A stretch of DNA of 64,000 nt, taken from a virus. The stretch lies in the IMG/VR virus record IMGVR_UViG_3300036760_000193, positions 129,204 through 193,203 of that record; one strand, 5' to 3'. The position numbers were made by a program, and so were the translations under genes. Positions 30,534 to 61,163 of the stretch are shown here, in pieces. The notes below the pieces were generated by a model, which saw only the letters and a program-made list of their open reading frames with translations, ran no database searches and was not told the DNA's origin. Positions within the stretch are counted from its first letter, which is position 1; each line of letters begins with the position of its first letter.

Positions 30534-31502
30534 TTAGGTGATTGAGATTTTTACGATACCCTTAGCGTAACGGATAACGAATCCAACGTCTTCCCAGATG
30601 GCGAAAATGTCTGCCATTTGGTTAACATCTTTCATTGTCTCAACGCTAACGTCGGTACGTACTGCAAGCACACCAAGGTATGCAGCAGGAGCCAACACAT
30701 AAACGCTGGTGGAAGGAACAATTACGGACTCTAGAACATCAGTGCCCCAAATGTTTCCGACTTTACCGGCTTTCAGTGCTGCTTCTTGGAAGTTAGGTGC
30801 GAAAATACCTGCACCACCACCAGTTCCCGCAGGCCCTGTGTTAAACAGCATGAGGTCTTTTGTTCTAAGCGGATTCAAATAAATCTTTGAAGCCGTCAAG
30901 AGCTTAGACCGCAGTGTTACGATAGACTCTACCAAAACTTCTTGGCTCAAGCGGGTTGCGCTTGTCAATAAGGTAGGGTTATTGGTCGCAGCGGTTGTAC
31001 CAGCAAGTGATGCTACTGGTGTTTGCCCTGTTAGACCAGAGGCGAAGTCAATAAGACTAAAGCCTCTCGTATCCTCTTGAAGCATGATGGAAGCTTTAGC
31101 TCTTTCCTGGGTACGGTTAAGAATATCGTACTTGCGGAAGTTGCTTTCGTTCCAACGGATCAAGGGACGTGTTGCAATAGGTGAGGTTTCTACACGAATA
31201 CGGTCTGCTGTGACTACCAATTCCTGTGGAAGACCGTTGACAGCGATGCTGGCTGCTGGCACATCGACATCTGCGTCGAATACGGCTTCTTCACCCAATG
31301 CGAGTTTGTAAGTTTGGAACAGTTGACGAATTCTGCCTTCGTACAAAAGGTCACGTTTCAGAGGTGATAGCATCTGTTGCGCGATCTTCTGCATTCCGCC
31401 AGGGGATTGCATCAATCTGGTCAACTTTTGTTCTACCTGAGCCGCCGTGAGACCACGGGCGTAAATGTCGTCAGGTGAACCTGTTTTTAGTTGCTCATTC
31501 AT
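30534..31502 (-). CDS. Major capsid protein (HK97-like)
   Basis: A 322-residue protein at the usual place after protease-scaffold and decoration genes. The N-terminal 45 residues are helical and look like a propeptide; M37-Q38-K39-I40-A41 matches the putative protease pattern also found in the portal and protease. The C-terminal part (AAYLGVLAVRTDVSVETMKD, then IWEDVGFVIRYAKGIVKISI) has the strand pattern of the HK97 P-domain end. A strong hairpin terminator follows the gene. The family call rests on layout, size and this C-terminal pattern. Confidence 0.8.
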   Translation of the reverse strand: MNEQLKTGSPDDIYARGLTAAQVEQKLTRLMQSPGGMQKIAQQMLSPLKRDLLYEGRIRQLFQTYKLALGEEAVFDADVDVPAASIAVNGLPQELVVTADRIRVETSPIATRPLIRWNESNFRKYDILNRTQERAKASIMLQEDTRGFSLIDFASGLTGQTPVASLAGTTAATNNPTLLTSATRLSQEVLVESIVTLRSKLLTASKIYLNPLRTKDLMLFNTGPAGTGGGAGIFAPNFQEAALKAGKVGNIWGTDVLESVIVPSTSVYVLAPAAYLGVLAVRTDVSVETMKDVNQMADIFAIWEDVGFVIRYAKGIVKISIT

Positions 31503-31572
31503 TGAAGATAATTCTCCTTAATTAAATTCTAGTCACAAAAATTTTGCGATCTAGTGTACTGCTAATTCAATC

Positions 31573-32046
31573 TTATAGATCGAATTTTACTCGAAGACGA
31601 GTAACTGGGGAGCCTTCAAAATCGAGAACTACTCCGATTTTTTGGCGAGGTCCAGTACCGACAGAGGTGACTTTTCCGTTTTCTTTCGCATAAACTGGGC
31701 GATTTAGAACGTATGTGTCAGCCGCTTCATAAGGTGCTCCACGTCCGTCATCAAACAGTTCCAAGATGGAACCGGTTGTGAAGGCACTTACGAGACCACC
31801 ACGGGCGAAGTTCGTGTAATCGAATCCTTCTCCTGCGGTTTGTCCTGACATAGGTGCAATCGGAGGCTGCGCTGTTGATTCTGCCGCAATTCCGAAAGGC
31901 AAGTCTAGCCAAGAACCGTCATCATAAGGTTTAACTGTGGTGGCTGTTGCCAAGACCAAAGGCTGTCCTGCGATAATCGCAGTTACGCCCGTGGCTGGTT
32001 TCAAACCCTCAGTACGGTTGTTTTCACGTATAACTCTTACTGCCAT
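31573..32046 (-). CDS. Putative capsid decoration protein
   Basis: A 157-residue strand-rich protein between protease-scaffold and capsid genes, the usual place for head decoration proteins. It contains ATGVTAIIAGQPLVLATATT, GLVSAFTTGSILELF and a C-terminal VTRLRVKFDL, a repetitive barrel-like pattern. It has no hydrophobic-x-K-x-A site, unlike the capsid and portal, consistent with joining after maturation. Preceded by AAGGAG. Confidence 0.6.
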   Translation of the reverse strand: MAVRVIRENNRTEGLKPATGVTAIIAGQPLVLATATTVKPYDDGSWLDLPFGIAAESTAQPPIAPMSGQTAGEGFDYTNFARGGLVSAFTTGSILELFDDGRGAPYEAADTYVLNRPVYAKENGKVTSVGTGPRQKIGVVLDFEGSPVTRLRVKFDL

Positions 32047-32229
32047 AGTATTAATCTCCTTACTAATAATTAGTAGAGTTTTTGCTACTTCTCGTCTCTT
32101 CGTCTTCGTACACTAGGGAACTTGGCACTACTGTTGACAAGCCCCATAAATTTCTTCGCTTTTAACTTTTATCTTAAATCATTTACTGCCTTCTGCAATT
32201 TCTTGTTGCAGAATTTTTTTGATAAAATC
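32047..32229. other. 183-base intergenic region
   Basis: The longest gene-free stretch in the window. It contains the decoration gene's ribosome binding site, AT-rich sequence and a perfect hairpin followed by seven Ts on the plus strand (32191-32220). I see no gene or promoter motif of the six-copy type. Confidence 0.7.
32191..32220 (+). terminator. Plus-strand (antisense) intrinsic terminator
   Basis: TTCTGCAA and TTGCAGAA form a perfect 8-base-pair stem with a 7-base loop, followed at once by seven Ts on the plus strand. All genes here are on the minus strand, so it would stop antisense transcripts. On the minus strand the hairpin lacks a T tail and would lie in the mRNA between scaffold and decoration genes. 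Confidence 0.6.
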
Positions 32230-33858
32230 TTACTTAAGTCCGCCGCCATTACCCATAGAATTGAAGATGTCATCTACTTCATGGTCTTCACTAGCTGTGT
32301 AATTAAGATGAAGAGGATTTGCAAGTCTGCTGCTTGCCTCTTTTCTAATTTTTACATTCTTAACACCATCTTCAAATGACTTGAGAGAAATGTCATCCAT
32401 AGCTAGAAGCGTCTTCACTTGCTTATTTACAGCTTTCTTCAAGGCTGCTTCTCTTGCATCAAGCAAGGTAGAACCACCCTTTATAAATACTTCAATTTCT
32501 GATTGCTCTATGTTAACCATATCTTTTTGTAACATCAAAGCAACTACTGTCTTGCAATGCTCTGTTCGTGCTTGCAACAGAGAACTAAATTTTTTGGCGT
32601 TGATTTCAGCTTCTTGAGCTTTCAATGCGGCTTCTTTCTTGTCAAGCTCTTCGGCTTTCTTCGTGATGGCAGCTTTTTCATGAGAAGCATAGGCTTCTTC
32701 TTTGCTAACTTCAGCTGGTTTTTCTTCAACTGGTGTTGGGCCTTCCATCTTAGGCTCTTCTGCTGCTGGAGCTTCTGGAGTTGCAGGAGCCATTTCATCT
32801 TTCTTCTCAGATACACCAAGAATAGATTGAAGTAGTTTCATAACAGAAGGTACGTCGAGGCCAAAACCGTCTGGCATACGCTTCGCTTCCGTTCCTGCTG
32901 CGTCTGTGACAACGATTTCTTGAGTCTTAGGGTCTTTCTTCGCCGTCATACCTTCAGCAATTACAATTCCATCGTCCAATTTGTCAAATGCACTCTTAGG
33001 AGCTTCCATTGGAGCTTCACCTGGTTTAGCAGGTGGGATTGGAGCATCTTCTGGCTTTTGATCTACTGGAACTTCCTCTACCTTCATACCTGGCTCTTCA
33101 ACTGCTGGTTCTGCGCCGGGGAAATCTGCTTTTTTCTCAACAGCTGCTTCTTTCTTCTCAGATTCTGGCTTAGATGACTCTAAATGTGCGCCGACTTCTG
33201 TTTCATCAGCCTTGTGAAGGGCGTCCTGAGTTTTATCAGCTGCTTTGTCTTCTTTTGTCTCTTTACCAGGTTTCACGAAAGAACCTTCTGGCTTAGAAAC
33301 GGTTGTTTCTGTTTTAAGGTGTTTCTCTTTCTCAGCGACTTTGAATCCAAGGCCGAGAATTTCTGCTGTTTTTGCAAAACCGACTTTCTTAAATGTTTCT
33401 ACGAGTTTATCACCATAGGAAGCACTTGCTGTCCAGGAACGATACTTTTCATCCGCCAACTGGTCTTCATCCCACAAGTTTTCAACAGAAGCTTTAAGAA
33501 TTTGTTTGTCACCTTGATACAATGCCCAAGATGATTTCTTAAAATCTTCATTTTTGGTGAATTCTGCACGGACATCTGTAGAAGCTGCTTTTTCTACTCC
33601 GCCCTTAGAGACTTTTTCGATCTCTTTCTTCACAGCGGTACTAAATACTTTGCCCAAAGGAGAGTTTTTTACTGCTGCGATAGCTTTGTCCAAAATTGTT
33701 TCATCAGTTTTCACTGGTTCTACTTTAACAGGAACTTCTGCTGTTTTTTCTAACTTTTTTTCCATCCATTTTGCAAATTCAATATACTCTAGAGCATTAA
33801 GCTTAGAAAGAGCCGATGGATTGGAATTTTCCGCTGTTGGCGTTACTTTGTCAGACAT
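32230..33858 (-). CDS. Nested in-frame scaffold protein (alternative start)
   Basis: A second product of the protease-scaffold gene. ATG at 33858 is codon 284 of the full protein and starts MSDKVTPTAEN. It lies just past the protease domain and 8 bases after a perfect AGGAGG. The predicted 542-residue product is a highly charged helical protein with an acidic Pro/Ala-rich middle. The same arrangement is known in lambda (C/Nu3), where it supplies excess scaffold over protease. Confidence 0.7.
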   Translation of the reverse strand: MSDKVTPTAENSNPSALSKLNALEYIEFAKWMEKKLEKTAEVPVKVEPVKTDETILDKAIAAVKNSPLGKVFSTAVKKEIEKVSKGGVEKAASTDVRAEFTKNEDFKKSSWALYQGDKQILKASVENLWDEDQLADEKYRSWTASASYGDKLVETFKKVGFAKTAEILGLGFKVAEKEKHLKTETTVSKPEGSFVKPGKETKEDKAADKTQDALHKADETEVGAHLESSKPESEKKEAAVEKKADFPGAEPAVEEPGMKVEEVPVDQKPEDAPIPPAKPGEAPMEAPKSAFDKLDDGIVIAEGMTAKKDPKTQEIVVTDAAGTEAKRMPDGFGLDVPSVMKLLQSILGVSEKKDEMAPATPEAPAAEEPKMEGPTPVEEKPAEVSKEEAYASHEKAAITKKAEELDKKEAALKAQEAEINAKKFSSLLQARTEHCKTVVALMLQKDMVNIEQSEIEVFIKGGSTLLDAREAALKKAVNKQVKTLLAMDDISLKSFEDGVKNVKIRKEASSRLANPLHLNYTASEDHEVDDIFNSMGNGGGLK

Positions 33859-34707
33859 TTTACTTTCCTCCTTGGGAACAGTGCAGCCACAAAAATCTGC
33901 TTGTATTTTTTTCTTTGTTTCATCGTCCAAGCTTGCCAAGATCGTTTTCAGGTGTGACTGTTCTGTAGCGTCTAGAGAAGCATTTTTGCTGATTTTGTTT
34001 TTCAAATTTGAGGCTATGATACCTTTAATGAACGCACTAGCATCTGCGGGTACATTAACAATTGAAAGTTCATTAAATACTAAGCCACTATTAATAGAAA
34101 ACGCCAAAGTGTCTGCACCCTTTTGAATTCCATACTCTGGAATGTCCACCTCTGCAATGTGTTTCTTCAAAATGCCAGATGGCTCAAGGTGAGCGCACTT
34201 TTGGTCATCATCTGTATGAATGACTGTACCACAAACCGAACACATAGAGGACTCGCAAGAGCATCCCATCGAAACAGTATTAAGTTCGCCCGTCTCAACC
34301 TTCCGGGAGATTTCTGGGTGGAGCTTTCTGTCTATCTTTGCTAAGCACTCTATGTAATATTCACCTGTCTCTGGGTCTTCAACAGGATAAGCGTCTAAAA
34401 TTTTTCCAATACTCTTAACTGGATGATCTGATTCATGGTTCAAAAATAAATTACGGCCAGCAAACGTCGAATAAGAAGCTTCAAGTTCTCTACGTGGAAA
34501 GTAATCTCCGTTCCCATTGGGATTCGGGACACCTTTCTCTGCACCCTGATCTCCTGCTGAAATAGCTCTAGCTCTAAAATACAAAAATTCTGCATTGCGC
34601 GGTTCAATGACTTTTTGTTCTGCCTGTGGTTTCTCGACAACGATATCTTCGAGTGTTACACCCGCAGCCGCGATCTTCACCAATGATCCAATTTTATGTA
34701 GTGCCAT
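32230..34707 (-). CDS. Prohead protease-scaffold fusion
   Basis: An 825-residue protein; the ATG at 34707 follows the upstream gene's TAA and an AGAGG. Residues 40-235 match prohead proteases of the herpesvirus-assemblin fold: NPNGNGDYFPRREL, the catalytic His in FLNHESDHP (H91), the catalytic Ser in NTVSMG (S146), and ELSIVNVPADASA (213-225). Directly after the Ser is a Cys cluster (C149, C151, C156, C159, then C171-x-H173) that may bind zinc. From about residue 240 the protein is Glu/Lys/Pro/Ala-rich and helical, as scaffolds are. Sites of the pattern hydrophobic-x-K-x-A occur at residues 9-13, 239-243 and several times in the scaffold part. An internal ribosome binding site allows the scaffold to be made alone. 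Confidence 0.88.
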   Translation of the reverse strand: MALHKIGSLVKIAAAGVTLEDIVVEKPQAEQKVIEPRNAEFLYFRARAISAGDQGAEKGVPNPNGNGDYFPRRELEASYSTFAGRNLFLNHESDHPVKSIGKILDAYPVEDPETGEYYIECLAKIDRKLHPEISRKVETGELNTVSMGCSCESSMCSVCGTVIHTDDDQKCAHLEPSGILKKHIAEVDIPEYGIQKGADTLAFSINSGLVFNELSIVNVPADASAFIKGIIASNLKNKISKNASLDATEQSHLKTILASLDDETKKKIQADFCGCTVPKEESKMSDKVTPTAENSNPSALSKLNALEYIEFAKWMEKKLEKTAEVPVKVEPVKTDETILDKAIAAVKNSPLGKVFSTAVKKEIEKVSKGGVEKAASTDVRAEFTKNEDFKKSSWALYQGDKQILKASVENLWDEDQLADEKYRSWTASASYGDKLVETFKKVGFAKTAEILGLGFKVAEKEKHLKTETTVSKPEGSFVKPGKETKEDKAADKTQDALHKADETEVGAHLESSKPESEKKEAAVEKKADFPGAEPAVEEPGMKVEEVPVDQKPEDAPIPPAKPGEAPMEAPKSAFDKLDDGIVIAEGMTAKKDPKTQEIVVTDAAGTEAKRMPDGFGLDVPSVMKLLQSILGVSEKKDEMAPATPEAPAAEEPKMEGPTPVEEKPAEVSKEEAYASHEKAAITKKAEELDKKEAALKAQEAEINAKKFSSLLQARTEHCKTVVALMLQKDMVNIEQSEIEVFIKGGSTLLDAREAALKKAVNKQVKTLLAMDDISLKSFEDGVKNVKIRKEASSRLANPLHLNYTASEDHEVDDIFNSMGNGGGLK
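33867..33872 (-). promoter_or_regulatory. Internal ribosome binding site for scaffold
   Basis: AGGAGG on the minus strand, 8 bases from the in-frame ATG at 33858, inside the protease-scaffold gene. It is as strong as any gene-start site in the window, supporting separate scaffold translation. Confidence 0.7.
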
Positions 34708-34708
34708 T

Positions 34709-35098
34709 TTATACCTCTTGTACGTTTCCAAAACTATCAACTTGAAGATTTGGAAGGCCGTCTCCCATAACAACTACACTACAATTGTTATCTCCTGGGT
34801 GTGATCTCTCAAATATCGGTGCGTCATGTACTAACCCAGATAAAAAATCTTCCAAAGTCCATTGTTGGTTATTCAACTCTACGCATACACTATGATTCGA
34901 CATTCCAGAATTCCATTGAACTGTCTGATACCCGTCATGTAGCAAATTTTCAAGTGTGGGTCTAGACAAGTCCTGTCGGTTATTACCGATAGCTTCTTTT
35001 TTAATGTCAAACCGAGCTTCTTTCTCTGAGGTGATCTTGTTCTTTACTACCTCATCAACCCAGGTTGCAAAATTATTCGTGTTTTTCTCCAAGCTCAT
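34709..35098 (-). CDS. Putative minor head protein
   Basis: About 129 residues from MSLEKNTNNF at 35098; a start ten codons earlier at 35128 is possible. Both overlap the end of the upstream gene. The C-terminal part (APIFERSHPGDNNCSVVVMG, then DSFGNV) resembles the SHPGCxC-like end of MuF-type minor head proteins, here with Asp-Asn-Asn before the Cys. Residues 43-47 of the longer form include IKKEA, one of the putative protease patterns. The location between portal and protease genes fits a minor head protein. Confidence 0.45.
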   Translation of the reverse strand: MSLEKNTNNFATWVDEVVKNKITSEKEARFDIKKEAIGNNRQDLSRPTLENLLHDGYQTVQWNSGMSNHSVCVELNNQQWTLEDFLSGLVHDAPIFERSHPGDNNCSVVVMGDGLPNLQVDSFGNVQEV

Positions 35099-35342
35099 AT
35101 CCGTAGGACTCCAATATTTTTGACCCATATTCTGCGGTCTTATAAAATTCGTCCTTTATGGTACGAGAAAACTGAGTCAACTGACGATCTGTCATCGGAG
35201 AAATTCTAGCTTCATCTAAAGCCTTCCCAATGCACCGTTGAATCAAAAATTTGATAAATAAGTCCATGTAAATCTTTTTCTCACCATTTGCTTCGTAAGC
35301 ATAGGACTGTTCTTCTTCTTTATGTACTGGTTTGTCGTTCAT
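35073..35342 (-). CDS. Hypothetical helical protein
   Basis: An 89-residue charged helical protein (YMDLFIKFLIQRCIGKALDE) preceded by AAGGAG. First gene after promoter copy 3, whose TATATA ends 56 bases upstream. A portal- or scaffold-associated role is possible from context. No family is recognised. Confidence 0.6.
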   Translation of the reverse strand: MNDKPVHKEEEQSYAYEANGEKKIYMDLFIKFLIQRCIGKALDEARISPMTDRQLTQFSRTIKDEFYKTAEYGSKILESYGYELGEKHE

Positions 35343-35397
35343 TTTCTGCTCCTTGTCTTTTCTTTTGTACAGGCGTAATTGTAAGGCAACATGCCTG

Positions 35398-35426
35398 TAT
35401 ATAACTATTCGAAAATATTATACTTT
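35398..35426 (-). promoter_or_regulatory. Putative phage promoter, copy 3
   Basis: Invariant 17-base core followed by AGTTATATA on the minus strand. The stop codon TAA of the 82-residue gene lies within the motif. The leader between it and the next ATG at 35342 contains a short hairpin (AGGCA-TGT-TGCCT). It would drive the head assembly genes: protease-scaffold, decoration and capsid. Confidence 0.65.
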
Positions 35427-35666
35427 TAGGCTGTTTTGGACTGTGACGCCGCTGCTATTCAAAAGATTTATAACTTGTGCGATATCTTCAGGATTATAAT
35501 TAACAATCCCGATGGATTTTACCGCTTCGTGAAGTTGATCTTTTGTGATTGAGGGCTGCTTCCACGTTTCTTTGATCTTTTGTACAATCAAGTTTGGGTC
35601 AAATGACAGAGCACCCATCTTAACCAACTTAATTTTCTCTGGGGAACCTACTTTATTTAAGGCCAT
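35418..35666 (-). CDS. Small head-region protein
   Basis: 82 residues from ATG 35666, which follows CCAGGAGAATAA; the longer frame overlapping the portal is rejected. The N terminus MALNKVGSPEKI resembles that of the protease-scaffold protein (MALHKIGSLVKI), suggesting a shared sorting or attachment signal. The rest is helical with two similar charged helices. Its stop codon lies in the promoter motif. Function unknown. Confidence 0.6.
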   Translation of the reverse strand: MALNKVGSPEKIKLVKMGALSFDPNLIVQKIKETWKQPSITKDQLHEAVKSIGIVNYNPEDIAQVINLLNSSGVTVQNSLKV

Positions 35667-35670
35667 ATAA

Positions 35671-37317
35671 TTATTCTCCTGGTACTGCTGGTGCTGTAGG
35701 GGCTTCCCCTCCTGGGGCACCGCCTGGTGTTGCTTCTCCTGCTCCAGGTTGTCCTGGTTCGCCTGGTTCTTGTGGCATAGGCGGTAAATCACCCACACTC
35801 ATTTCACCACCACCTGGAAGCTTACCACCACCTCCACCGCCTCCACCACCGCCACGGCTAGGTTTGCTGATGCTCTTAGGGAGTCTACCGTCTTTTGATC
35901 CTTTATCGAATATCGTACCACGTTCATCTTCAAGATTCTTAAGTTCCTCATCATAATTGATATTAGGGAACTTAGAAAGAAGCGTTTTTGTAGAAAGCAA
36001 GCCCTTCTCCCAAAAAGCAATGAATCTCTCTTTCTCATCATGCTCTTCTTCGATGTCCAAAGACTTGTTCCAAGAGATGGTAGGAAGGATCAACTTCTTT
36101 TTACCATTATCTGTGGTGTAAAAATTATTCTTTTTGGCAATAGGTCTGAAATACTTATTTATCATCCAGTTCTCGAACCTGTCACGAATGACTTTGTATA
36201 CCATCATTAATTTGTGCAAGGCCATTGTCTTCACATTACTAAATGAAGGCCCTTCACCCAATATGATGTTCTTGTTAACACCCAAACCTACCAATAGTTG
36301 GTCATGGATGTATTCATACTCATTGTTGATTGGAAACTGCTTACCAAGAGTGCTCAGAGCTTCGTACTTAACAATATCTGGGTACACAATTGTAAATGGA
36401 GGCTGCTGCAATGCCTGGTTAACCATTGATCGAAACTCTTCCAAATCCGCATCTGTCGGATTAATGTTATTGGCAGGGTCTCCGATTTTCCACAATTCTA
36501 CTGGAAATACATAACGCTGAGCAAATGCAGACTGCGCCAAACGAATCCAGTCCTGATAAATTAAAACTTTGAAAAGACATTGAATAGGACTTGTGCCTCT
36601 TGTAGCTGACGGATCAGTCGTGTTGGCGATAATAGAAGCGTGTTCTTCGCTGATAGGAATGTTCTTTCCATTCACTACGGCATCATACGCCTGGGGAGCT
36701 TCTTTCTTCAAACGCTCAATACGAGTTTGATCTTCGTCTTTGGTACTTTTGACAAGCTGTTTAAGCTCTTCATTGGGGACAAGTTCCATAGTCATCTTAC
36801 CCTCGAACATGTCATACTGGATTTCTACATATTCTGGTTCAAGAAGAACGAATTTCTCCCAACGATATAGACCGTCTTCGCCTTTTGTCATGTTACCAAA
36901 GGGAATGGCCTCTCCGAACTTCTGATAGCTTAAGCTGGCCTTTAATAGGAAGTCAAACAAGTCAAAATTCTCATTGAAAGACATTTCTTTGTAAAACTCT
37001 GTGATAGATTCATCATCTGTGCTGATTTCAAACTTAGAAAATGGATACAGGGAGTGCATTATAATAATTTGCTGGACATATGGCTCCAGGTTGAAGAATA
37101 TACGCGCCCACTTCAAAATTTCTTGTCTAGATTTTGGAAGTAGCCATGATTCTGTCGTTAATTCTGGTGAATAGAAAAATGAAGACGTAGTTTGGACGTT
37201 TGTTGTCGCCGTCTTTTGCATTCCTCCACTATATGACCCGAATGAAAACGTTGACCCCGTTGTGGTCTTACCGCTTTTCTTTACAAGTCCACCTGATTTT
37301 GCTTTACCTTTTGCCAT
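35671..37317 (-). CDS. Portal protein
   Basis: A 548-residue protein directly after terminase in the standard order. The core (residues 60-460) has the helical and strand pattern of large portal proteins, with LPKSRQEILKWARIFF, a conserved ATRGTSPIQCLFKVLIYQDW segment, and LGVNKNIILGEGPSF near the clip/stem region. Residues 470-548 are a poly-Gly then Pro/Gly/Glu-rich tail. M33-Q34-K35-T36-A37 matches the putative protease pattern, nearly the same as in the capsid protein (MQKIA), so the first ~37 residues may be removed at maturation. Forms the dodecameric DNA gate at one capsid vertex. Confidence 0.85.
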   Translation of the reverse strand: MAKGKAKSGGLVKKSGKTTTGSTFSFGSYSGGMQKTATTNVQTTSSFFYSPELTTESWLLPKSRQEILKWARIFFNLEPYVQQIIIMHSLYPFSKFEISTDDESITEFYKEMSFNENFDLFDFLLKASLSYQKFGEAIPFGNMTKGEDGLYRWEKFVLLEPEYVEIQYDMFEGKMTMELVPNEELKQLVKSTKDEDQTRIERLKKEAPQAYDAVVNGKNIPISEEHASIIANTTDPSATRGTSPIQCLFKVLIYQDWIRLAQSAFAQRYVFPVELWKIGDPANNINPTDADLEEFRSMVNQALQQPPFTIVYPDIVKYEALSTLGKQFPINNEYEYIHDQLLVGLGVNKNIILGEGPSFSNVKTMALHKLMMVYKVIRDRFENWMINKYFRPIAKKNNFYTTDNGKKKLILPTISWNKSLDIEEEHDEKERFIAFWEKGLLSTKTLLSKFPNINYDEELKNLEDERGTIFDKGSKDGRLPKSISKPSRGGGGGGGGGGKLPGGGEMSVGDLPPMPQEPGEPGQPGAGEATPGGAPGGEAPTAPAVPGE

Positions 37318-37319: not shown

Positions 37320-37607
37320 TTATTCTCCTCTATTCTCTTTCTGTTCTTTTTCTTCTAATACTTTCGCCTCTTCTAATTCATCTGCTTCTTGCTGTTCAGT
37401 TTGCTGTTGTACCTCTATCTGTATGCCTTTATCAACACTATTAATGCCTTTCTTTAGGCAATTAATTGAGGCAACAAGATATTCCTGCGCCTGTAATAAA
37501 TCATTTTTATTGTACTTCGAAAATTTACCACGTACAGATTCAAACACATCGCTGACTGCGATGAGATTGTGAACAACTTCTTTTAATGTTCTGTATTCGC
37601 GGCTCAT
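37320..37607 (-). CDS. Hypothetical helical protein between terminase and portal
   Basis: A 95-residue helical protein with a very acidic, Gln/Glu-rich C-terminal coil (EEAKVLEEKEQKE). Its ATG overlaps the terminase stop (ATGA). Its place between terminase and portal suggests a packaging accessory, but no motif supports this. Confidence 0.6.
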   Translation of the reverse strand: MSREYRTLKEVVHNLIAVSDVFESVRGKFSKYNKNDLLQAQEYLVASINCLKKGINSVDKGIQIEVQQQTEQQEADELEEAKVLEEKEQKENRGE

Positions 37608-39220
37608 TTCAAGTACCTATTGTCTTCTTTTTTGTTGCTCATGATACGACTTTGAGCACTGATCCCACTACTAATCTTAGGAGTTGGGATTTTGTATGTA
37701 GATGCCATTGCTGCTGGGAATGAATTACTTTTATCCATAGCCCATACTGCCAAAACATCAGCAGAACAATGGTCATCATGTAAATCTGATGGGGCTTTAA
37801 TCTTATCGTTAATACCCCCACCGCCAGCTATATGACGTTCGATGTTACACCACTCATTGTATGACTTCTTAAAAACTTTATTTTTGTCTATCGTGTCCAA
37901 AGATGGGAATAAAACGCGACCCTCATCCAATTCATGCTTGAACTCGTCAAACATGGCATTTTTATAATTCTTCTTAGATTCGCTCTCTTGTCTACCAAAC
38001 ATGATTCCCTCAATTGGGATTCTTTCTGCTTTGAAAAACGGAATAATAGCTTGAGCCACGTTACTGTGGTCAGCGATACCAAATACACAAGGAAAATCTC
38101 CAGTTATAGGATGAATGATCTTTTTAATTTCTTCCCACTGTGTAACTATATCCCCTTGCCACTCAAAACAAGCTACTTTCTCTTTAACATTATCACCACG
38201 CTTACGCCAAATAGATAATGCTGTAAAGTCTAAATCTTTCTTCTTAGGCTGCAATGATCCTGGGGCGGTATCCAGACCAAAAAAGTAATGTTCTTTTAAT
38301 TCAGGACGCGCATGTTTCAAAATACTATGTGTCCCACTTATTAACATCGCTTGCTGACGTTCGTTCAAGTCCAAGTCGATATCAGACACCCACTCCATTG
38401 CGAACTGTGTCTTGTATTCAAAATCTGAGTATTCTCCTTCATAATGAAGGTCTGGACGATCTGGAAACAATACTTGCTTCGTATTCAATGACAATTTACG
38501 AACGATATGATCGGGATAGTCAATTCCATTGTAACGGAACGAACCACTTGTCTTCAGAATATCGCACTCAAGCCAATTACGCTTCAGAACAGTGTAGTCT
38601 CTGCTGGCTACACAGCTTTTCCAAAAATTGTTTTTAGCAGCAGGTATACCGATTTTAATAGTTTTTGCCATCGCAAAACTACCTAACATTGGGTTGATGT
38701 GCTGATTAACTACAGCGTCTTCAATTCTATGACACTCGTCTAAGACGATGACATGAAAATGCCAACCTTCTTTCTTGGTGGTTGGAGCCGCTGACATCGC
38801 TAAAATTTCTGATCCATTATTAAAAATTAACCGAGACTTCACAGAGTCTTTCCAATTGATCTTTGAGTGCATTACTGTACCAGGCTTAATAATGTTCTTT
38901 CTGATTTCCTCAATAATACGTATGGCCTGGTCTGCTCTGGGGGCGAATACTCCAATCTTGATTCCGCGCTGTCTAACACACAACTTTGAAAGGGCAATAC
39001 CTACTGCAAAGGTTTTACCTGCACCACGGGCTTGCATTACAGCTAAATTTTTTATTTGGGGGTTTAGGACGGCGTTTACAATTTCAATCTGATTATCATA
39101 TAAATCTATGCTCAGATTTTCGTAAATCCAACGAGCAGAATTGCTTGCTGATCTTAGAAGTTTTGTGGCCTTCGTACTTAATGTTTCTACACTATCAAGT
39201 GTTTTTTTCCGAAATATCAT
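37604..39220 (-). CDS. terL: Terminase large subunit
   Basis: A 538-residue packaging motor with both expected domains. ATPase: Walker A at 64-70 (ARGAGKT) and Walker B at 157-162 (VIVLDE). C-terminal RNase H-like nuclease: first acidic residue in FFGLDTAP (D317), second in FGIADHSN (D384), third in SDLHDDHCSADVLA (about D482-D488). It pumps DNA into the prohead through the portal and cuts genome units. It overlaps the zinc-ribbon gene upstream by 26 bases and couples to the next by ATGA. No intein or intron was seen. Confidence 0.95.
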   Translation of the reverse strand: MIFRKKTLDSVETLSTKATKLLRSASNSARWIYENLSIDLYDNQIEIVNAVLNPQIKNLAVMQARGAGKTFAVGIALSKLCVRQRGIKIGVFAPRADQAIRIIEEIRKNIIKPGTVMHSKINWKDSVKSRLIFNNGSEILAMSAAPTTKKEGWHFHVIVLDECHRIEDAVVNQHINPMLGSFAMAKTIKIGIPAAKNNFWKSCVASRDYTVLKRNWLECDILKTSGSFRYNGIDYPDHIVRKLSLNTKQVLFPDRPDLHYEGEYSDFEYKTQFAMEWVSDIDLDLNERQQAMLISGTHSILKHARPELKEHYFFGLDTAPGSLQPKKKDLDFTALSIWRKRGDNVKEKVACFEWQGDIVTQWEEIKKIIHPITGDFPCVFGIADHSNVAQAIIPFFKAERIPIEGIMFGRQESESKKNYKNAMFDEFKHELDEGRVLFPSLDTIDKNKVFKKSYNEWCNIERHIAGGGGINDKIKAPSDLHDDHCSADVLAVWAMDKSNSFPAAMASTYKIPTPKISSGISAQSRIMSNKKEDNRYLK

Positions 39221-42800: not shown

Positions 42801-42947
42801 CACAGATGTAGACGACTGATCTGTGGATGGGGTGTAAGCAAGACTGATTGAACGTACATTACTTCCTACTGCTGTAGGGTCAACGACGTTAAATCTTTCC
42901 ATCACTGGCTGTTCAGAAGCAAATAAATTACGTAAAAATTCGTACAT
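39837..42947 (-). CDS. Large zinc-ribbon protein, probable packaged/internal protein
   Basis: A 1036-residue modular protein with long acidic Pro/Gly linkers (250-300, 385-440). It has two zinc ribbons: C725/C728 with C744/C747, and C778/C781 with C794/C797. A possible KOW/SH3-like segment (about 519-570) and helical regions at both ends are visible. The pattern hydrophobic-x-K-x-A occurs at 218-222, 458-462, 576-580, 613-617, 874-878 and 882-886, mostly in linkers. It has no recognisable enzyme domain. Its position before terminase, its linkers and the shared pattern suggest a head-internal protein cut by the prohead protease. Confidence 0.55.
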   Translation of the reverse strand: MYEFLRNLFASEQPVMERFNVVDPTAVGSNVRSISLAYTPSTDQSSTSVVSLFWTDSKNKVYEKQFQDEMQAQNLYGSMKSDLQEAADLTRTEKMESAASLVRSLLKRYSIYTDELVDGSPAPITNTNASKKVKADELDDIDDTSKDVGSPEWIDQVLSQYEEENSRMGYIADQDDIMNHLMYVANEEGMGFNIDEKTLNQWIKEWASWKAQQKKSSLGKVAKVVMQNLFFETPEELQKYQEMNKKNQPGGKQLGDFKDDLPPMDKNKMPGEGLGEGLGEDQPEDGLAPSSLSYEDYEKNKAKESKSLTKRIEREVKDQVKSALERKVASTFDETDDELIDAFRTKGRTWEEIKNYFTKELQYDKDSVAAYIDALREAEHGGVPGQTPGQPPVKDPAAPAAPSAPKPPADLVSPETHDKLVKEVDDQTKPPAVEPPLEHEIEKHDMALGEIATQSVEIQKVAEEPLETIPKSRPEMGKDFDFLPDETNMSDDMKDDPAASPDPGDIMQVQEDEIVPGPDAKVYVMKDYQSGEGGYEGTLVGKFSSGGDEFGFVDVNGDIKDVPMRDIKRASEFRRLVKFAADRKRKREQEKARSAQAELRSIMAEIKGVDAELTKEAESKADANAWVRAWLNTDELESDPVIRKILENPSLDEKNITGALAKRVTEMLEEKGYSDYQIQNVSGVSIDVDYKQLYSILSNAQERANEEKENMASSLKEAAPAKLKCPHCGSTNVTPAFGHKLNKCDSCHWAFDNESVEDKEAASKNPYGFDPKDENVPCTQCGRKDLPLHPDNKCPNCSKYGKEKEAAPGDKVPKQTVSPADPKPAVEPEIKGPEMTKPWKKAPEGLREETPVLAPDIVNNLYNQVKDTEIKIQMLKTAADEIMKKAVDDARKVKEQGGEQALTEQYQVGIQKLYSALETLNAKVVEVDSTLLAYVKEQGKEEIKWTATEKLKAAIEKFPEITKYLENALNGAQAHAKPVEKRQIIPFPKAQSQQLSRFDKRADMMDIINYMLENVNAAYQALTGATGSEQSPQLAQ

Positions 42948-53571: not shown

Positions 53572-54282
53572 TTACTTCAAGTCTTTCAAGAAGAACCTAA
53601 CGGCGTCTAAACTCTGCGCGATATTCAAATGCGTCACACCGAATCCTACAATGAATCCGGCAGTAGCAATACCAACTAGCTTACCATCATCATCAAATAC
53701 CGTGCTTCCTGAATTGCCTGGAAGAACACCACAATCCAACAAAATATGATCTCCGTCTATTTTCGCAATGACTCCCTCTGAATAGGTGTCTTCAATGCCC
53801 AATGGACTTCCAATAATATGAATCTTTTGCCCTCTTTTAATCTCCTTAGCCAGGACAAAGTGCTGTGTATTAGAACGGTCGATATGAATGACAGCCATAT
53901 CATGTGCAACAGATACACTACTTACAATAGCAGCATAGTGCTGTTTATCAAAGGTTTCTACTTCAATAGAGTCTATGTCTCTAGTGCAGTGCTTAGCGGT
54001 CAAAATGTCTCCATGATCGTTGATAAAGGCACCAGAACAAACGTAATGGACTTCCCTCGATCCGTTAAAAATAGCTTTCTTCTTTTTAGAAGCTTCTGGA
54101 TAATCTGGGATTTCTACTAATCGCGTGATATGAAGTTCTACGATTTTTTGTTCTACTGGAATAATCACGGGGGCTACTACAACAACAGGTGCTGGTTTTG
54201 CAACTTTCTTAGCTGCAAAAACCGTCGGTATCGAATTCATAATCAAGGCAGTGCAAAATAAAAGGGTCAAAAGTCTCTTCAT
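53572..54282 (-). CDS. Secreted trypsin-like serine protease
   Basis: 236 residues. Residues 1-24 are a signal peptide (MKRLL, hydrophobic core, PTVFA cleavage site), followed by a Pro/Val linker at 29-45. The catalytic triad of the chymotrypsin fold is intact: H98 in LTAKHC, D128 in AHDMAVIHID and S191 in LPGNSGST. C83 and C99 could form a disulfide. The protein should be exported to the periplasm or outside the cell. A DegP-like fold without a PDZ domain. Secreted serine proteases are unusual in phage genomes; it could act on host envelope proteins, on superinfecting phage receptors, or on phage fibres. It precedes the polyprotein in the same operon. Confidence 0.88.
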   Translation of the reverse strand: MKRLLTLLFCTALIMNSIPTVFAAKKVAKPAPVVVVAPVIIPVEQKIVELHITRLVEIPDYPEASKKKKAIFNGSREVHYVCSGAFINDHGDILTAKHCTRDIDSIEVETFDKQHYAAIVSSVSVAHDMAVIHIDRSNTQHFVLAKEIKRGQKIHIIGSPLGIEDTYSEGVIAKIDGDHILLDCGVLPGNSGSTVFDDDGKLVGIATAGFIVGFGVTHLNIAQSLDAVRFFLKDLK

Positions 54283-54852: not shown

Positions 54853-54860
54853 AAACCACC

Positions 54861-55300: not shown

Positions 55301-55312
55301 AATGCTAAATAA

Positions 55313-55708: not shown

Positions 55709-55722
55709 GACTTATCTCCTTC

Positions 55723-56382
55723 CTACCTTAAGTAGGTATTTGTAACTTCTAATAAAATTGTAGGGGAAATTGTAACTCCCACTTTTTTCATTTCAGCCAC
55801 GGCGTAATCTAATGCCCGATTCTGAGGATGCCCATTCGTTATAGCTTCATAGTAATGTGCCACAGCAGAATTGTATTCTGCACCATACTGTGCAGCAACT
55901 TGATTCATTTGCTCTTGACTCAATGGGTTGTCGTAAGCTCTTTTATCAAGTCGTGACAAGCCAAACTCAGATGTCACAAGGTCTTCATCTGATGGATCAT
56001 CTTCGCGGCCTTTTGGAAGCCATTGGACAGAAGGGAAATCCCCCTTTGGGTCTTTACCTAAATCTACTGGACTATCAAAAAATCCAAAATCTGAGGTTTT
56101 CTCATTGCTAACAACCTTTCCATATTCCTGAACGATATCATCAAAAGAAATGGCTGAGCCATTATCTAATTCTATCATTTTCAAGCGCATATCTATGTGA
56201 GCGGGTTTTCCTAAAACGGTTGGATTTTCAAGAAAGTATTTTACAGCATCATTTAAGGAGATGCCCTTAGACTTACTTTCTTTAGCGGCAGGATCGTACC
56301 ACATACCTTTTGGGGGTGCCCCGATTGGTTGTGCTTTTTCTTGACCAGGCCACTTATCGTCAAACCTAGAAAGCCTATCCAC
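55723..56382 (-). CDS. Hypothetical protein of the packaged-protein cluster
   Basis: 219 residues. Starts MDRLSRFDDKWPGQ. The first part has a small helical module (DAVKYFLENPTVLGKPAHID), the middle is acidic and likely disordered, and the C-terminal 65 residues form a helical domain. L-D-K-R-A near residue 149 matches the putative protease pattern and separates the middle from the C-terminal domain. The pattern suggests that it too is processed in the head. Confidence 0.5.
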   Translation of the reverse strand: MDRLSRFDDKWPGQEKAQPIGAPPKGMWYDPAAKESKSKGISLNDAVKYFLENPTVLGKPAHIDMRLKMIELDNGSAISFDDIVQEYGKVVSNEKTSDFGFFDSPVDLGKDPKGDFPSVQWLPKGREDDPSDEDLVTSEFGLSRLDKRAYDNPLSQEQMNQVAAQYGAEYNSAVAHYYEAITNGHPQNRALDYAVAEMKKVGVTISPTILLEVTNTYLR

Positions 56383-56387
56383 AGGAG

Positions 56388-59171
56388 TTAGTAGGTAAAC
56401 TGAGTGTCAGCTACCATGTCCCATGTATTTGAATCTATATTGAACATCCACTTCATGCCTTGTGGCAGAGTAACGCTAGGTTTCGGAGGCAGCGCAGCTT
56501 CGGTTTCCACAGTCTCAGGAGCCACATCAGCAGCTTGAGTTTGTGTCTGCAATACCTCTTTAGTTTGAGTCATTTTCGTTCTCATCTGTTCTACATGATC
56601 TGTAAGATCATCGGCTTGGATGCGAAGTCCTTTCTCTTTTGCGAACTTCAAAAACTTTTTATAGCAATCTGGGCAGTCTTTAGCTAAATCATTCAAAACT
56701 TTAACACTTTTAATGCGAACAATTTTATCCGTTTTGGACAAAGGCATAAGAGATGCTTCATGATCCTTTTTTTCTTTCTTACGCTTGCAATCACGGCAAA
56801 GAACCTCTTCACTATATGTCATTGGAACTACGGCCCCACATTCTTTGCATTTTTGATCTAAATGAGGTTTACGGTCTGCGACGATCTCGAAATCGAACCT
56901 GTCGAAGGATGTCCAACCAGTAACGCTCTTCATTTCCAAAGAAGCAAATTTAGCTTCTTTGCGTTTAACATCAATACTTACAATTTTAACTTTGTGTCCC
57001 TTCTTCAGAACAGAAAGATTTGTTTTCAGCGTTGCTCTTACAAGATCACGGTTTCCAAGCTCATTAAATACAATTTGTTCAATCTCAGGTTGAGATAGTT
57101 CATGATCTTTCATTGTAATTGCCATAATCTGTTGCCCTTGGTCATCAAAAATAACCCAAGCATCAGGAACACCAGGTTTACCGCTAGTTCTTTTAGCTGT
57201 CCACTTACGATTGGCAATATTCAGTTCCATTGTTCCTGTTGGCTCAGCTGCATTCAGAGAAACATCTTCGTCACGCTTTGGAGCTACTGCCATACCAGGA
57301 CGGTCTCCACCATATCCCATTCCGTCACCTTCTGCTCTTTTCTCTTTTTGTGATATTTTAGGACGGTATGGTTCAGTCCAAGTTGATTTGTTTTTTTCTT
57401 GGTCAATTAATTCGTGCATAAGTTCTGGGTCAACAACTGGTGGAGCTTCCTTAAGTGATTTGTTATAAGATTTCTCCCATTGCTTAAAAGGGACACCTAC
57501 TGGAGCAAATTTTGTGCCTTCCTCCCCTGTGAGACCATATTGATAGGCTCTTCCATCATAAGTGAATTGTAAGTCTGTTTTTGGATCACCGTATTTATCA
57601 ATGTATTGTTCAAGTAAATAATGCGTATATGTATCAAATAAATCTGCGTTTTTATCTAAAGAACTTTTATGGTGCTTAAAATATTCAACTTGTCGAAGTC
57701 TTTTGACAGCTTTTTCTTTGCTATCATAAGGCCCTCCAAGATTTTTTCCCTCTTCTGAAAGTACATGCCATCCGTCCTTTTCATGGACTACACGGCCTTC
57801 AACTTTCAAGGAAGCTTCTTTTTCTTCTACAATAGACCAACCACTTTTCATGGCACGATCCCAAGATAAATCTTGAATACGATGAAGTTTCATAAGCATC
57901 TCATTATAGGATGCTCCTTCACCACGGACTTCTCCATTGTATTTAAGAACAAACTTGCCACGCTTCAAAAAAGCTCTCTTCACGAAATTTGTGCATTTGC
58001 ATTCGTCACATTTTGTTTTACCATCATCTGTTTCATGGTCGAATTTCATGTGTCCACAAGAGCACTTCTCGTAAGAAATTTCCCTTGAAGCTTCGGCTTC
58101 TTTATCATTGTGCATAAAGGGCTGCATTAAATATTTGTCAGTTTTACATTTAGGACATTCTGTGATATCTTCGTCATAAACCCCGTAGCAATTATTGCAA
58201 CGAACTTTATCAGTGACTTCCTTGGCAGCACGTTTTCTTAGATCAGAACCTTTATAGGCTCCAAATCCATGATCTGCTGCCAGCTTTCCAGTATCCCAAT
58301 GAACATAGGCCATATCTTTATCTGCGTCATAACGCATGACACGACCATATGATCCAGCAGTACCATAAACAGGTTCTACAAGATCATCAAGAGCAAACTT
58401 ACTCACATCTGCATGTTTGTCCGTTGTTGCTTCTGGTTTTATTTCAGTTTCTTTAGGAGTTGCTTTTTGGCCTTCCGCATAGTAGTCCCAAGGTGTTTGC
58501 TGATTAACCGCAAACTCTTTGTTAAAACACGCTTTAAGTTTTTCACGATCTTCTTCATTTTGTACCCTCTCTATTGCTCTCTTGAATTTAACAATGGTGT
58601 CATACTGTGGGTCGTCGGCCATAATCAAATAATCGAGCATTTTCATGTATAAGGCTGATGCAATCATTGAATCAAATTCTGGGTCTTTTGTTAAATCCAT
58701 TTTATCCAGTTTTTCTTCTGGTTTAGGCACTTCAACTTTTTTCTCAGGTTCTGGTGTAGGGGCTGGGGTTACTTCTGGTGCTGCTTCAGCGGTAACTGCT
58801 GGAGCTTCAACAGATGCGTCAACTGGAGTAGCTGCAACGGCAGCAGGATCAATAACTTGTTGGTCAACTGGCAAAGGAATAGCAGAAAGCATACCACCAG
58901 GGGCGGCTTCTACTGGAACAGTTTCTGGTTTTGCTTCTTCAGAAACAACAGTCTGTGTGGCAAGTTCTTTTTCTCTATTTTGTTTCTCAATAGAACGTTG
59001 TTTCTTTTTCTCCTGCATATCAGCATAACGAACTTCTAAATCTTTAAGACTATCAATAGCTGATTTTAACTCAGATGGATTAACTTTGCTCATGTCGAGA
59101 CTATCAATACGCTTACGAAGTGTATGAATTTGAGTGTAGAGACCCGCCTCTTTTTGAATGGTTGCGTTCAT
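56388..59171 (-). CDS. Large zinc-ribbon protein, probable packaged/internal protein
   Basis: 927 residues. I5-Q6-K7-E8-A9 at the N terminus and further hydrophobic-x-K-x-A sites at 256-260, 311-315 and 505-509 fit the putative protease pattern. Modules: N-terminal coiled coil (15-75), a Pro/Ala/Glu linker (80-150), a KOW/SH3-like segment (262-310), zinc ribbons at C325/C328-C339/C342, C370/C372-C388/C391 and C775/C778-C792/C795, plus C833/C836. A segment at 465-500 (GWHVLSEEGKNLGGPYDS) resembles a small domain I have seen in other phage proteins. No enzyme motif. Probably a DNA- or protein-binding head-internal protein. Confidence 0.55.
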   Translation of the reverse strand: MNATIQKEAGLYTQIHTLRKRIDSLDMSKVNPSELKSAIDSLKDLEVRYADMQEKKKQRSIEKQNREKELATQTVVSEEAKPETVPVEAAPGGMLSAIPLPVDQQVIDPAAVAATPVDASVEAPAVTAEAAPEVTPAPTPEPEKKVEVPKPEEKLDKMDLTKDPEFDSMIASALYMKMLDYLIMADDPQYDTIVKFKRAIERVQNEEDREKLKACFNKEFAVNQQTPWDYYAEGQKATPKETEIKPEATTDKHADVSKFALDDLVEPVYGTAGSYGRVMRYDADKDMAYVHWDTGKLAADHGFGAYKGSDLRKRAAKEVTDKVRCNNCYGVYDEDITECPKCKTDKYLMQPFMHNDKEAEASREISYEKCSCGHMKFDHETDDGKTKCDECKCTNFVKRAFLKRGKFVLKYNGEVRGEGASYNEMLMKLHRIQDLSWDRAMKSGWSIVEEKEASLKVEGRVVHEKDGWHVLSEEGKNLGGPYDSKEKAVKRLRQVEYFKHHKSSLDKNADLFDTYTHYLLEQYIDKYGDPKTDLQFTYDGRAYQYGLTGEEGTKFAPVGVPFKQWEKSYNKSLKEAPPVVDPELMHELIDQEKNKSTWTEPYRPKISQKEKRAEGDGMGYGGDRPGMAVAPKRDEDVSLNAAEPTGTMELNIANRKWTAKRTSGKPGVPDAWVIFDDQGQQIMAITMKDHELSQPEIEQIVFNELGNRDLVRATLKTNLSVLKKGHKVKIVSIDVKRKEAKFASLEMKSVTGWTSFDRFDFEIVADRKPHLDQKCKECGAVVPMTYSEEVLCRDCKRKKEKKDHEASLMPLSKTDKIVRIKSVKVLNDLAKDCPDCYKKFLKFAKEKGLRIQADDLTDHVEQMRTKMTQTKEVLQTQTQAADVAPETVETEAALPPKPSVTLPQGMKWMFNIDSNTWDMVADTQFTY

Positions 59172-59183
59172 GTGGGCTGCTCC

Positions 59184-61163
59184 TTATTTCGCGTCTTGAG
59201 AATTGATGCCGAGTTCTTTTTCTTTCTCTTTGGAAATTTTCTCAGTAGCAACAGGTGCTACTCTAGCGATGATTTCTTCCCCACGGTCATTTTTAACGAC
59301 TTTCCACGGAGATTCTATTTCTGCAACTTTTTTCAAAACTTCTTTCTTGGAAGCATGTGGTTGGATTTCCCCCATCGAAGCTTCTGGTTCAGCTGGAGCT
59401 TCTTCTACTTCTGATGTTTCAGCTGGAATATCTTCTTCAAAATGTCCACCTACTTCATACCAATCAACACTACGCATAGAATTGGAAATGAGATCAGCAT
59501 ACATTGATGCTCCAAGATCAGGTTGAGATTCCTCTACTAATTGTTTGATTTTCTCACCAAGGTCTCCAGCACCTTTAGAAGACTTTGCCAATTCAATAAC
59601 AGTGCGATACATACCCTCATCATTATCTAACCACAAAGCTACGATCCACGTTTCATAATTTTTCCATCCCTGATAACCATGTTCTTCTTGTGGAAGGGTA
59701 ACAGGTGCTGGGGTTGCTGGCGGTGCAGCTTCTTTTTCTTCTACTTGTGGGGGTTTAGGAGCAGGTTTGCCGTGTAATGGATCGTTCTCTCTGACATCAT
59801 CCATCAATTCATCAGCAGTTTTCAAAGAGGCTTCTTTTGGTTCCTCTTTTTTGTCTTCTTTCTTAAGGTCTTTTACTTCTTCCTTCTCATGCTCAGGAGT
59901 TTCACCAGGTTCAGAATGAGGTACATCAAGTTTGTCTAAGAGTTTATCTTCTGGAGAATCTTCTACAACTGTTGGGACACCAGGCATTGGAGCGGCCATA
60001 GGATCAACGACGGGAACGGTTGGAGCCATCTCTTCAAATTTCTTATCAATAGTGTCTTTGATAAGCTTATCAACTTTTTTCTCAATAATTTCAACGGGAG
60101 ATGCAGCTTTTACTTTCAAAGAAGCTTCTTTATCTTTCTTACCATGACCGCATGTAACGCATGTAATGCTACCGTCTTCATGTTTACGAGCAGTTTTACT
60201 ATCACAAGTTGGGCACTTAACAAATTCTGTTTTAGATGCTTCTTTACCCACTTGGCCTTTTTCTTCCTCTTTACCTACGCCTTCCATCTGTTCAAGTTTT
60301 TCTTTATCCGTTGTGGCATCAAATTTGGTCTTAGATTCCCAAGCCATTTTGCCTTCTTTCCACTCACTATAAAGGTCTTTCTCAGCAGCATGTTTTACTT
60401 CTGAATCTTCTAATTCTTTGAATGATTTCTTCCAATCTACAAGTGTATGATTCCCAAGAAACTTAACAAGCTTTTTCTCAGCAGCATCACGACCAGAGGC
60501 AACGGATTTCATTGCATCTTCTTTGTATTCATTGTGGCTAAGTGTGGCTACACCTTTTTCAATGCACTCATACTCAGCAATCATTTCAGCTAGGTTGTAA
60601 TCGGAAAGACCTTTCACTTTAATTTCATAGTCTTTCTCAATTGTTTCTTCGCGTGTATCGCCCTTCTCATAAGCAGCGATTTTTTTGACACCTGGTTGTT
60701 TCTTAGAAGCATCCCAATCTGGACGATCTGTTCCACGTTGTTCAGGTACTTCTTCAGGAGCTTCATTTTCAATATCTTTCAAAATTGTTCCTTGTTCGTC
60801 AAGATAACCTTGGTCGATAAGAGATTTTGCTGCACGACCATAACTACCTTGCAGTGACCACGCATGTCCGTTTTTAATAAGTTCACTAAAAAGTTTTAGA
60901 ATTTCTTCATTTCCAAGATCACCTTGTTCAAAAGCCATGATTGCACCGACTTCATCAAATGGTTCTGCAACTCCACTCATTTGCTCTTCCGCAGCTTGTT
61001 TTGCAGCAGCTTCTTTAGCGAGAGCAACTTCATCAATCTCCATCACGTCTTTAACCCAATCGTTGGACTGAACCTTACGTTCCCACTCTTTTTCCTGGTT
61101 TGTTAATTCGGCTTCTTTCGAAATGCCGTCTTTATCTGAAAACATGTCATGTATCCAATTCAT
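59184..61163 (-). CDS. Large linker-rich zinc-ribbon protein
   Basis: 659 residues. I14-S15-K16-E17-A18 near the N terminus, with further sites at 159-163, 305-309 and 610-614. A zinc ribbon lies at C317/C320 and C335/C338. Helical charged regions (20-60, 165-280) alternate with acidic Pro-rich linkers (380-500). Residues 497-572 contain GWKNYETWIVALWLDNDEG, a small helical domain I recall from many phage proteins, with unknown function. Preceded by AAGGAG. With the 927- and 1036-residue proteins it forms a set of apparently related modular proteins. Confidence 0.55.
   Translation of the reverse strand: MNWIHDMFSDKDGISKEAELTNQEKEWERKVQSNDWVKDVMEIDEVALAKEAAAKQAAEEQMSGVAEPFDEVGAIMAFEQGDLGNEEILKLFSELIKNGHAWSLQGSYGRAAKSLIDQGYLDEQGTILKDIENEAPEEVPEQRGTDRPDWDASKKQPGVKKIAAYEKGDTREETIEKDYEIKVKGLSDYNLAEMIAEYECIEKGVATLSHNEYKEDAMKSVASGRDAAEKKLVKFLGNHTLVDWKKSFKELEDSEVKHAAEKDLYSEWKEGKMAWESKTKFDATTDKEKLEQMEGVGKEEEKGQVGKEASKTEFVKCPTCDSKTARKHEDGSITCVTCGHGKKDKEASLKVKAASPVEIIEKKVDKLIKDTIDKKFEEMAPTVPVVDPMAAPMPGVPTVVEDSPEDKLLDKLDVPHSEPGETPEHEKEEVKDLKKEDKKEEPKEASLKTADELMDDVRENDPLHGKPAPKPPQVEEKEAAPPATPAPVTLPQEEHGYQGWKNYETWIVALWLDNDEGMYRTVIELAKSSKGAGDLGEKIKQLVEESQPDLGASMYADLISNSMRSVDWYEVGGHFEEDIPAETSEVEEAPAEPEASMGEIQPHASKKEVLKKVAEIESPWKVVKNDRGEEIIARVAPVATEKISKEKEKELGINSQDAK

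Follow-up and report, generated by a model that had tools for sequence, protein, structure and literature searches.

Do the head proteins of a tailed phage and the multidomain proteins encoded beside them share one cut site for the prohead protease? We analyzed a window of 64,000 nucleotides (positions 129,204 to 193,203 of IMG/VR record IMGVR_UViG_3300036760_000193, the final third of that record's 193 kb), in which a short motif, [LIVM]xKxA, recurs in the capsid protein, portal and protease and in a 2693-residue polyprotein. We write this strict motif as ΦxKxA and call KxA without a hydrophobic residue at -2 non-strict. From the evidence below, we put the probability at roughly three in four that KxA, mostly with a hydrophobic residue at -2 and often with Ser or Ala next, is the prohead-protease site, at which head proteins are trimmed and polyvalent proteins are split. 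Genes and sites given below in the form start..end all lie on the minus strand.

All open reading frames (ORFs) of the entire record were listed, and motif counts were compared with shuffles that preserve composition. Nine head and inner proteins contain ΦxKxA 42 times versus 11.4 expected (0 of 300 shuffles as high). In the same proteins the reversed motif occurred 10 times versus 11.9, ΦxRxA, ΦxKxS and ΦxKxG were at chance, as was ΦxExA (12 versus 12.1; bare [LI]xE lay outside this test), and ΦxKxA in the genome's other 273 ORFs stood at chance level (56 versus 53.3). As the motif was already known when the nine proteins were picked, a second test used ORFs chosen by position only, the 24 from the capsid gene to that of a 659-residue protein, which we call the head block. 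These hold 45 strict sites versus 14.9 expected (standard deviation 3.8; 0 of 500 shuffles reached 45) and 12 reversed motifs versus 14.6, and the other 258 ORFs of the record are at chance level (53 versus 50.4). When all 400 [LIVM]-x-X-x-Y pairs were ranked, K,A came top in the window head block (z 7.8) and also first in the head blocks of seven relatives (z 14.1), whose 157 head-block ORFs, with the motif preset, contain 213 sites versus 85.6 (reversed, 81 versus 85.4). The polyprotein has 10 strict sites versus 2.5 expected (0 of 1000 shuffles as high), and nine relatives' polyproteins, again with the motif preset, have 42 versus 13.5 (0 of 1000; reversed, 18 versus 13.1); tail-side long proteins of 2111 and 1342 residues have one site and none, respectively. 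The motif excess in the head block is thus confirmed as real and far above chance. The initial annotation had listed sites at capsid residue 37, portal 33, protease 9 and 239 and nine polyprotein positions, all of which are present; its count of nine strict polyprotein sites where about three would arise by chance was borne out, with a tenth at 2337 that it had omitted, and the comparison with non-head proteins of the same genome that it had suggested showed the enrichment.

The motif is also conserved. A capsid query reached 57 loci in the viral collection, and head-block proteins were aligned to two to five relatives each, with lysines away from KxA as controls. KxA is kept at 67 of 108 aligned positions (62%) versus 74 of 892 control lysines (8%), and the best-conserved sites are those at the protease/scaffold junction, the portal N terminus and a 139-residue protein. 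A whole-polyprotein query of the viral collection gave no match; homologs were reached through records with capsid loci and were present in 5 of 14 related records searched, with varying domain orders and numbers. These rearrangements allowed domain borders to be defined, without reference to the motif, as the ends of BLAST matches between polyproteins. KxA lies within 15 residues of 66 of the 123 left borders, where 29.4 are expected and the maximum of 1000 circular shifts was 45; the strict motif lies near 35 of them (expected 13.4, maximum 25). Right borders give the same picture, and the coincidence was at chance for AxK, ExA, KxG, KxL and the reversed motif.

The polyvalent polyprotein (45059..53140) comprises nucleotidyltransferase-like, HAD-like, 2H phosphoesterase and low-molecular-weight (LMW) phosphatase domains, six copies of a WIxPxG repeat, and others. 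Pfam matches include LMWPc (E 4e-23) and 2_5_RNA_ligase2 (E 3e-11), and relatives gave matches to NTP_transf_2, HAD and ART-PolyVal, each below the Pfam cut-off. Its nucleotidyltransferase-like/HAD-like joint carries a non-strict KKA at 312 (52199..52207; LKLAY and KEAA in relatives; low predicted local distance difference test (pLDDT) scores at 310-321), and the joint between the HAD-like domain and the first repeat carries another at 427 (51854..51862; relatives EKSAS, EKKAS and DKTAS; low pLDDT at 418-432). VAKTA at 545 (51494..51508) precedes the 2H domain, with homology breaks at 544, 545 and 546 and low pLDDT at 509-555, and the non-strict KEA at 723 (50966..50974) follows it, with low pLDDT at 720-735 and KKEAA or KKNAS in relatives. 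Further joints are MEKKA at 948 (50285..50299; homology border 950), LLKHA at 1423 (48860..48874; borders 1428 and 1429) and LQKEA at 2081 (46886..46900; borders 2077 and 2080). Joints before a repeat carry LNKEA at 1270 (49319..49333; border 1268), LSKHA at 1700 (48029..48043; borders 1699 and 1706) and LSKRA at 1941 (47306..47320; border 1941). At the joint with LQKHA at 2302 (46223..46237), the relative G001 has LKQAGEGG in the same place; VTKVA at 2454 (45767..45781; border 2449) precedes the LMW phosphatase and corresponds to LKQAFGTVKNVL in G001. The omitted IFKFA at 2337 (46118..46132) lies inside a domain, is unconserved (IFALA in G001) and is probably no site.

Joints 312, 427, 723, 1118/1124 and 1552 all have KxA without a hydrophobic residue at -2, and direct reading places the Trp of six out of six WIxPxG copies 8-15 residues downstream of the KxA Lys. 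In an AlphaFold model of polyprotein residues 1-735, the joints at 312, 427, 547 (within VAKTA) and 723 all fall within low-confidence linkers; the other KxA in this region (41, 106, 186, 349) lack the hydrophobic residue and lie outside such linkers. Since this model is only of moderate quality (mean pLDDT 69, with 22% of residues below 50), we take linker placement as supporting rather than decisive. The initial proposal that the sites mark domain linkers therefore holds for the borders that coincide with KxA and fails for several sites inside folds; similarly, the strict pattern is enriched but too narrow as a site definition, as real joints lack the hydrophobic residue. Separately, residues ~600-679 of the 2H domain (window 51104-51343) gave a weak match to Acb1, an inhibitor of the cyclic oligonucleotide-based antiphage signaling system (anti-CBASS; E 9e-4, below cut-off), hinting at anti-defense cargo. 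The polyprotein gene has a small HNH-endonuclease-like ORF on either side (window 44599-44994 and 53103-53570), and such ORFs were also found among relatives' head genes. A stand-alone 157-residue ORF outside the head block (G000:C1:54081-54554) starts like a WIxPxG domain (MRGFLDPRGKFY).

The candidate enzyme is a prohead protease fused to a scaffold-like region (32230..34707; 825 residues, numbered from M23 of ORF 32230-34773; PHROG 18299, head maturation protease), with capsid, portal and terminase large subunit (TerL) genes assigned by PHROG in its neighborhood. An alignment of 28 sequences and an AlphaFold model of the N-terminal domain, built from 28 relatives, predict a folded core at residues 32-233 (34009..34614; pLDDT mostly >90) between disordered tails at 1-31 and 234-245. 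H91 and S146, putative catalytic residues, are invariant across the 28 sequences. Plain Foldseek found no match to the model at E<0.001; a second structural aligner found herpesvirus proteases as the closest solved folds (1vzv, varicella-zoster virus (VZV) protease; Z 11.8, root-mean-square deviation 2.4 over 114 residues, ~11% identity), followed by T4 gp21 (5jbl; Z 10.2), with unrelated entries standing at Z 6.6. The window protease thus models as an assemblin/T4 gp21 fold.

Two KxA sites flank the core, and both fall in the tails that the model predicts to be disordered. LVKIA (9-13; 34669..34683) is a candidate for N-terminal self-cleavage, with ILKTA, INKTA and ITKRA as counterparts in relatives. 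ISKNA (239-243; 33979..33993) marks the protease/scaffold junction beside the folded core, where the window's ISKNASL corresponds to ISKQASL, LTKKASL, FTKTASL and LSKTAAL in relatives. Both sites proposed in the initial annotation are therefore well placed. Near the scaffold C terminus, IRKEA (32335..32349) has KxA counterparts in five of five aligned relatives. The strict site at protease 194 lies in a conserved or folded region and is a poor candidate.

Among the smaller head-block genes, the 139-residue protein (34709..35128) carries its site, DIKKEA (34991-35005), in five of five relatives, where it reads RLNKQA, RLNKEA, SISKIA or SIHKIA after a short N-terminal leader. Several such leaders, each followed by KxA, occur in the 139- and 659-residue families, and an MxxW-type leader, unlike that of the protease, recurs in both. 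An 83-residue protein (35418..35669, from M44 of its ORF) has a protease-like N terminus, MALNKVGS...LVKMG, with MALNKIGS, MALNKRGS and MPLHKKGS in relatives. The leader it has in common with the protease, M[AS]LxKxGS...K (35600-35669 and 34650-34707, respectively), is possibly a capsid-targeting sequence. In the portal protein (548 residues, 35671..37317; PHROG 16240, E 8e-39), the N-terminal site MQKTA (33-37; 37207..37221) stands up well, with ΦxKxA kept in most relatives across an otherwise divergent region; portal sites 67 and 203 fall in conserved or folded regions and are poor candidates. In two relatives, the portals L046 (G007) and L042 (G005) have, after SRQEILKW, an inserted segment that shows features of an intein and ends in VAPVLVHN-C.

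The other multidomain proteins of the block carry sites of mixed quality. In the 1036-residue inner-head candidate (39837..42947), three of six strict sites (218, 458, 613) are kept in most relatives, as is the position of a C-terminal FDKRA, and the remaining three (576, 874, 882) are poorly conserved. A 474-residue inner-head candidate (43163..44587) has three sites, the best conserved being 388. By sequence comparison, parts of a 219-residue protein (55723..56382) are domains of relatives' polyproteins. The adjacent 927-residue multidomain protein (56388..59171) keeps site 256 in G001 and G009, with site 311 poorly conserved, and the 659-residue multidomain protein (59184..61163) keeps sites 14, 48, 159 and 610 in G001 and/or G011.

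The same signal extends to Bacillus phage G. In its head region, KxA is the top gap-2 pair (46 versus 23.0) and ΦxKxA occurs 16 times versus 5.2; its protease homolog, gp19, carries 7 strict sites over 300 residues versus 0.5, four of them in the two tails of gp19. Because phage G has this motif, the idea is testable in a cultured virus. KxA also ranks first in the head region of Tunturi_5 (55 versus 33.7), with no hydrophobic preference. In mycobacteriophage HyRo, KxA is not enriched, and RxA is so weakly (51 versus 34.3).

Across 243 distinct sites, the position between Lys and Ala is enriched in Q, E, T and K and depleted of G, D, P and L; Ser or Ala follows the Ala at about twice expectation, and S, G and N stand before the hydrophobic residue. 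The SPN3US prohead protease prefers Ser at P1', and the mature P1 capsid has Ser at its N terminus. Because the Ala-Ser/Ala step recalls both, this analysis slightly favors a cut after Ala over one after Lys.

Given the enrichment, its restriction to the head block, the conservation, the coincidence with borders and the protease fold, we infer that the window protease cleaves the motif inside the head and that injection of the fragments follows. The protease would free itself inside the prohead at both disordered tails, chop the scaffold and trim the N-terminal ends of the portal and of further inner proteins. It would also cut the 2693-, 1036-, 927-, 659- and 474-residue proteins at their linkers, so that polyvalent proteins would be packaged as single chains and split into single-domain enzymes prior to injection.

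Several observations weigh against this proposal. Some strict sites are inside folds. The mapped prohead sites of T4, phiKZ and SPN3US follow Glu ([LI]xE, [SA]xE, AxE), and packaging of the polyprotein is suggested only by the position of its gene and the type of its domains; for packaging followed by injection, the pointers are gene position and the shared motif. TerL (37604..39220; PHROG 2, E 7e-21) has no N-terminal site in the window; in G001, G003, G009 and G011 it has LSKAA or LNKAA near residue 20, and these sites count on the negative side because terminase is not expected inside the head. The major capsid protein (322 residues, 30534..31502), a homolog of phage G gp27 (PHROG 2522, E 7.5e-35; PDB 6wkk, E 3e-30), carries MQKIA (37-41; 31380..31394) in a conserved N arm. 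The initial annotation counted this among the cut sites, a claim that we do not uphold: the flanks are conserved on both sides over a long stretch, the Lys is lost in L039, L040 and L056, some relatives have RQTIA, and phage G has VALAQ at that place, its deposited chain 6wkk aligning with near-full-length numbering. For these reasons the site is doubtful on sequence grounds, was set aside and is not counted as evidence. Many relatives' capsids have a site in the first ten residues (INKEASLE, VTKTASPDD), and the window capsid has no such site. As a separate observation on terminase, TerL of G003 (L100; G003:C1:44661-48034) is split into two overlapping ORFs, the second opening with an intein-like C-terminal part (DTHCYFANDILVHNC), and another intein-like ORF lies at 49160-51874 of that relative.

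A different protease could cut KxA, either an exported trypsin/DegP-like peptidase or a host protease after injection, although we consider this unlikely. A gene for such a peptidase (53572..54282; Pfam Trypsin_2, E 2e-20) adjoins the polyprotein gene, lying directly upstream of it in the window, G001, G009 and G004 and within the head block of G002, G003 and G011; it is present in 7 of 9 relatives' records, and the Lys of the motif would fit a trypsin-like enzyme. However, its predicted signal peptide or lipobox means that it should exit the cytoplasm, where heads form. In chymotrypsin-fold proteases, Lys specificity goes with Asp at the pocket position six before the catalytic Ser; this peptidase has another residue there (DATVLPGNSGG) and would not be expected to be Lys-specific. 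Moreover, the head protease, scaffold and portal all carry the motif, and these are the proteins that a prohead protease usually cuts. These same proteins, together with the flexible linkers, would also be suitable places for ΦxKxA to serve as a docking motif by which cargo domains are tethered to the scaffold or portal while the head assembles. At some sites, cutting would take off very little, since just 4-9 residues separate them from an N terminus. Nevertheless, sites on both sides of the protease core and at the scaffold junction are what self-processing predicts, and nearly all polyprotein joints carry a site, which exceeds what tethering requires; docking therefore has, in our view, a slim chance of being correct.

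The remaining explanations would make KxA a by-product. Iyer et al. 2017 (PMC5512222) proposed that embedded metallopeptidases release many polyvalent proteins, and in G003 a 1129-residue protein includes a putative metallopeptidase domain, DUF6782, with HExxH. An embedded zincin that releases these proteins, with KxA as an incidental linker feature, is nonetheless very improbable, as it does not account for the presence of KxA in the protease, the scaffold and the portal, and HExxH is absent from the window polyprotein and from 8 of 9 relatives' polyproteins. For the 2693-residue protein this candidate was rejected, with neither HExxH nor HExxxH present. Since K, A and E abound in these proteins, Lys/Ala-rich linkers and coiled coils might create the motif through composition, yet the shuffles preserve composition, chance levels were seen for the reversed motif and for one-residue variants, and site conservation and border coincidence also speak against such an artifact, which we regard as ruled out for practical purposes.

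Returning to cleavage by the prohead protease, we lean toward a broader view in which a separate protease with a new Lys-Ala specificity dismantles packaged polyproteins into at least a dozen enzymes in the capsid, and KxA-flanked cassettes can be swapped between phages. If true, large tailed phages, cultured phage G included, would use a polyprotein strategy like that of RNA viruses, and there would be a mechanism for large polyvalent proteins to fit into and leave the phage head. It would also add a new specificity to a protease family whose mapped T4 and giant-phage members cut after Glu, and make domain borders and packaged cargo readable from sequence in many uncultured phages. The open literature searched yielded no paper that describes a KxA motif or the cleavage sites of phage G, which is not proof of absence.

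As the initial annotation had stated for T4 and phiKZ, prohead proteases use short motifs, and those of T4, phiKZ and SPN3US are similarly short (PMC9026906). The window system resembles all three in having a short degenerate motif common to scaffold, portal, inner proteins and protease, in its predicted self-cleavage and in extra sites in propeptides. Cleavage is Glu-directed there, whereas Lys and Ala are conserved here. T4 gp21 generates multiple fragments from scaffold and core proteins (PMC9026906), and the window protease shares its assemblin-type fold in the model. In SPN3US, every identified cleavage bar self-cleavage yields an N-terminal propeptide (PMC10052503), whereas the window sites are mostly internal domain joints. 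The short N-terminal leaders also resemble, by description only, the T4 capsid targeting sequence and the P1 DarB packaging signal. Herpesvirus assemblin, the closest solved fold, likewise combines protease and scaffold in a single chain, separated by a release site, as in the window fusion with its junction site. It cuts Ala-Ser bonds, with a different upstream pattern, and we know of no multi-enzyme substrate for it.

Like known polyvalent proteins, the window polyprotein combines unrelated domains, nucleotidyltransferase and 2H phosphoesterase among them, in a single chain encoded within the head genes; G003 adds an ART-PolyVal match. The study of polyvalent proteins (PMC5512222) notes an assemblin-like domain at the C termini of some of them and proposes release via embedded metallopeptidases or this domain; in the parts examined, no recurrent cut motif that polyvalent proteins share with separate head proteins was found. 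A zincin metallopeptidase occurs in ~36% of polyvalent proteins and is not required, and the window 2693-residue protein shows no such metallopeptidase motif; the window protease differs in being encoded by a separate gene. Polyvalent proteins and assemblin-type proteases are thus known, whereas the Lys motif and the arrangement of one protease with many joints appear new.

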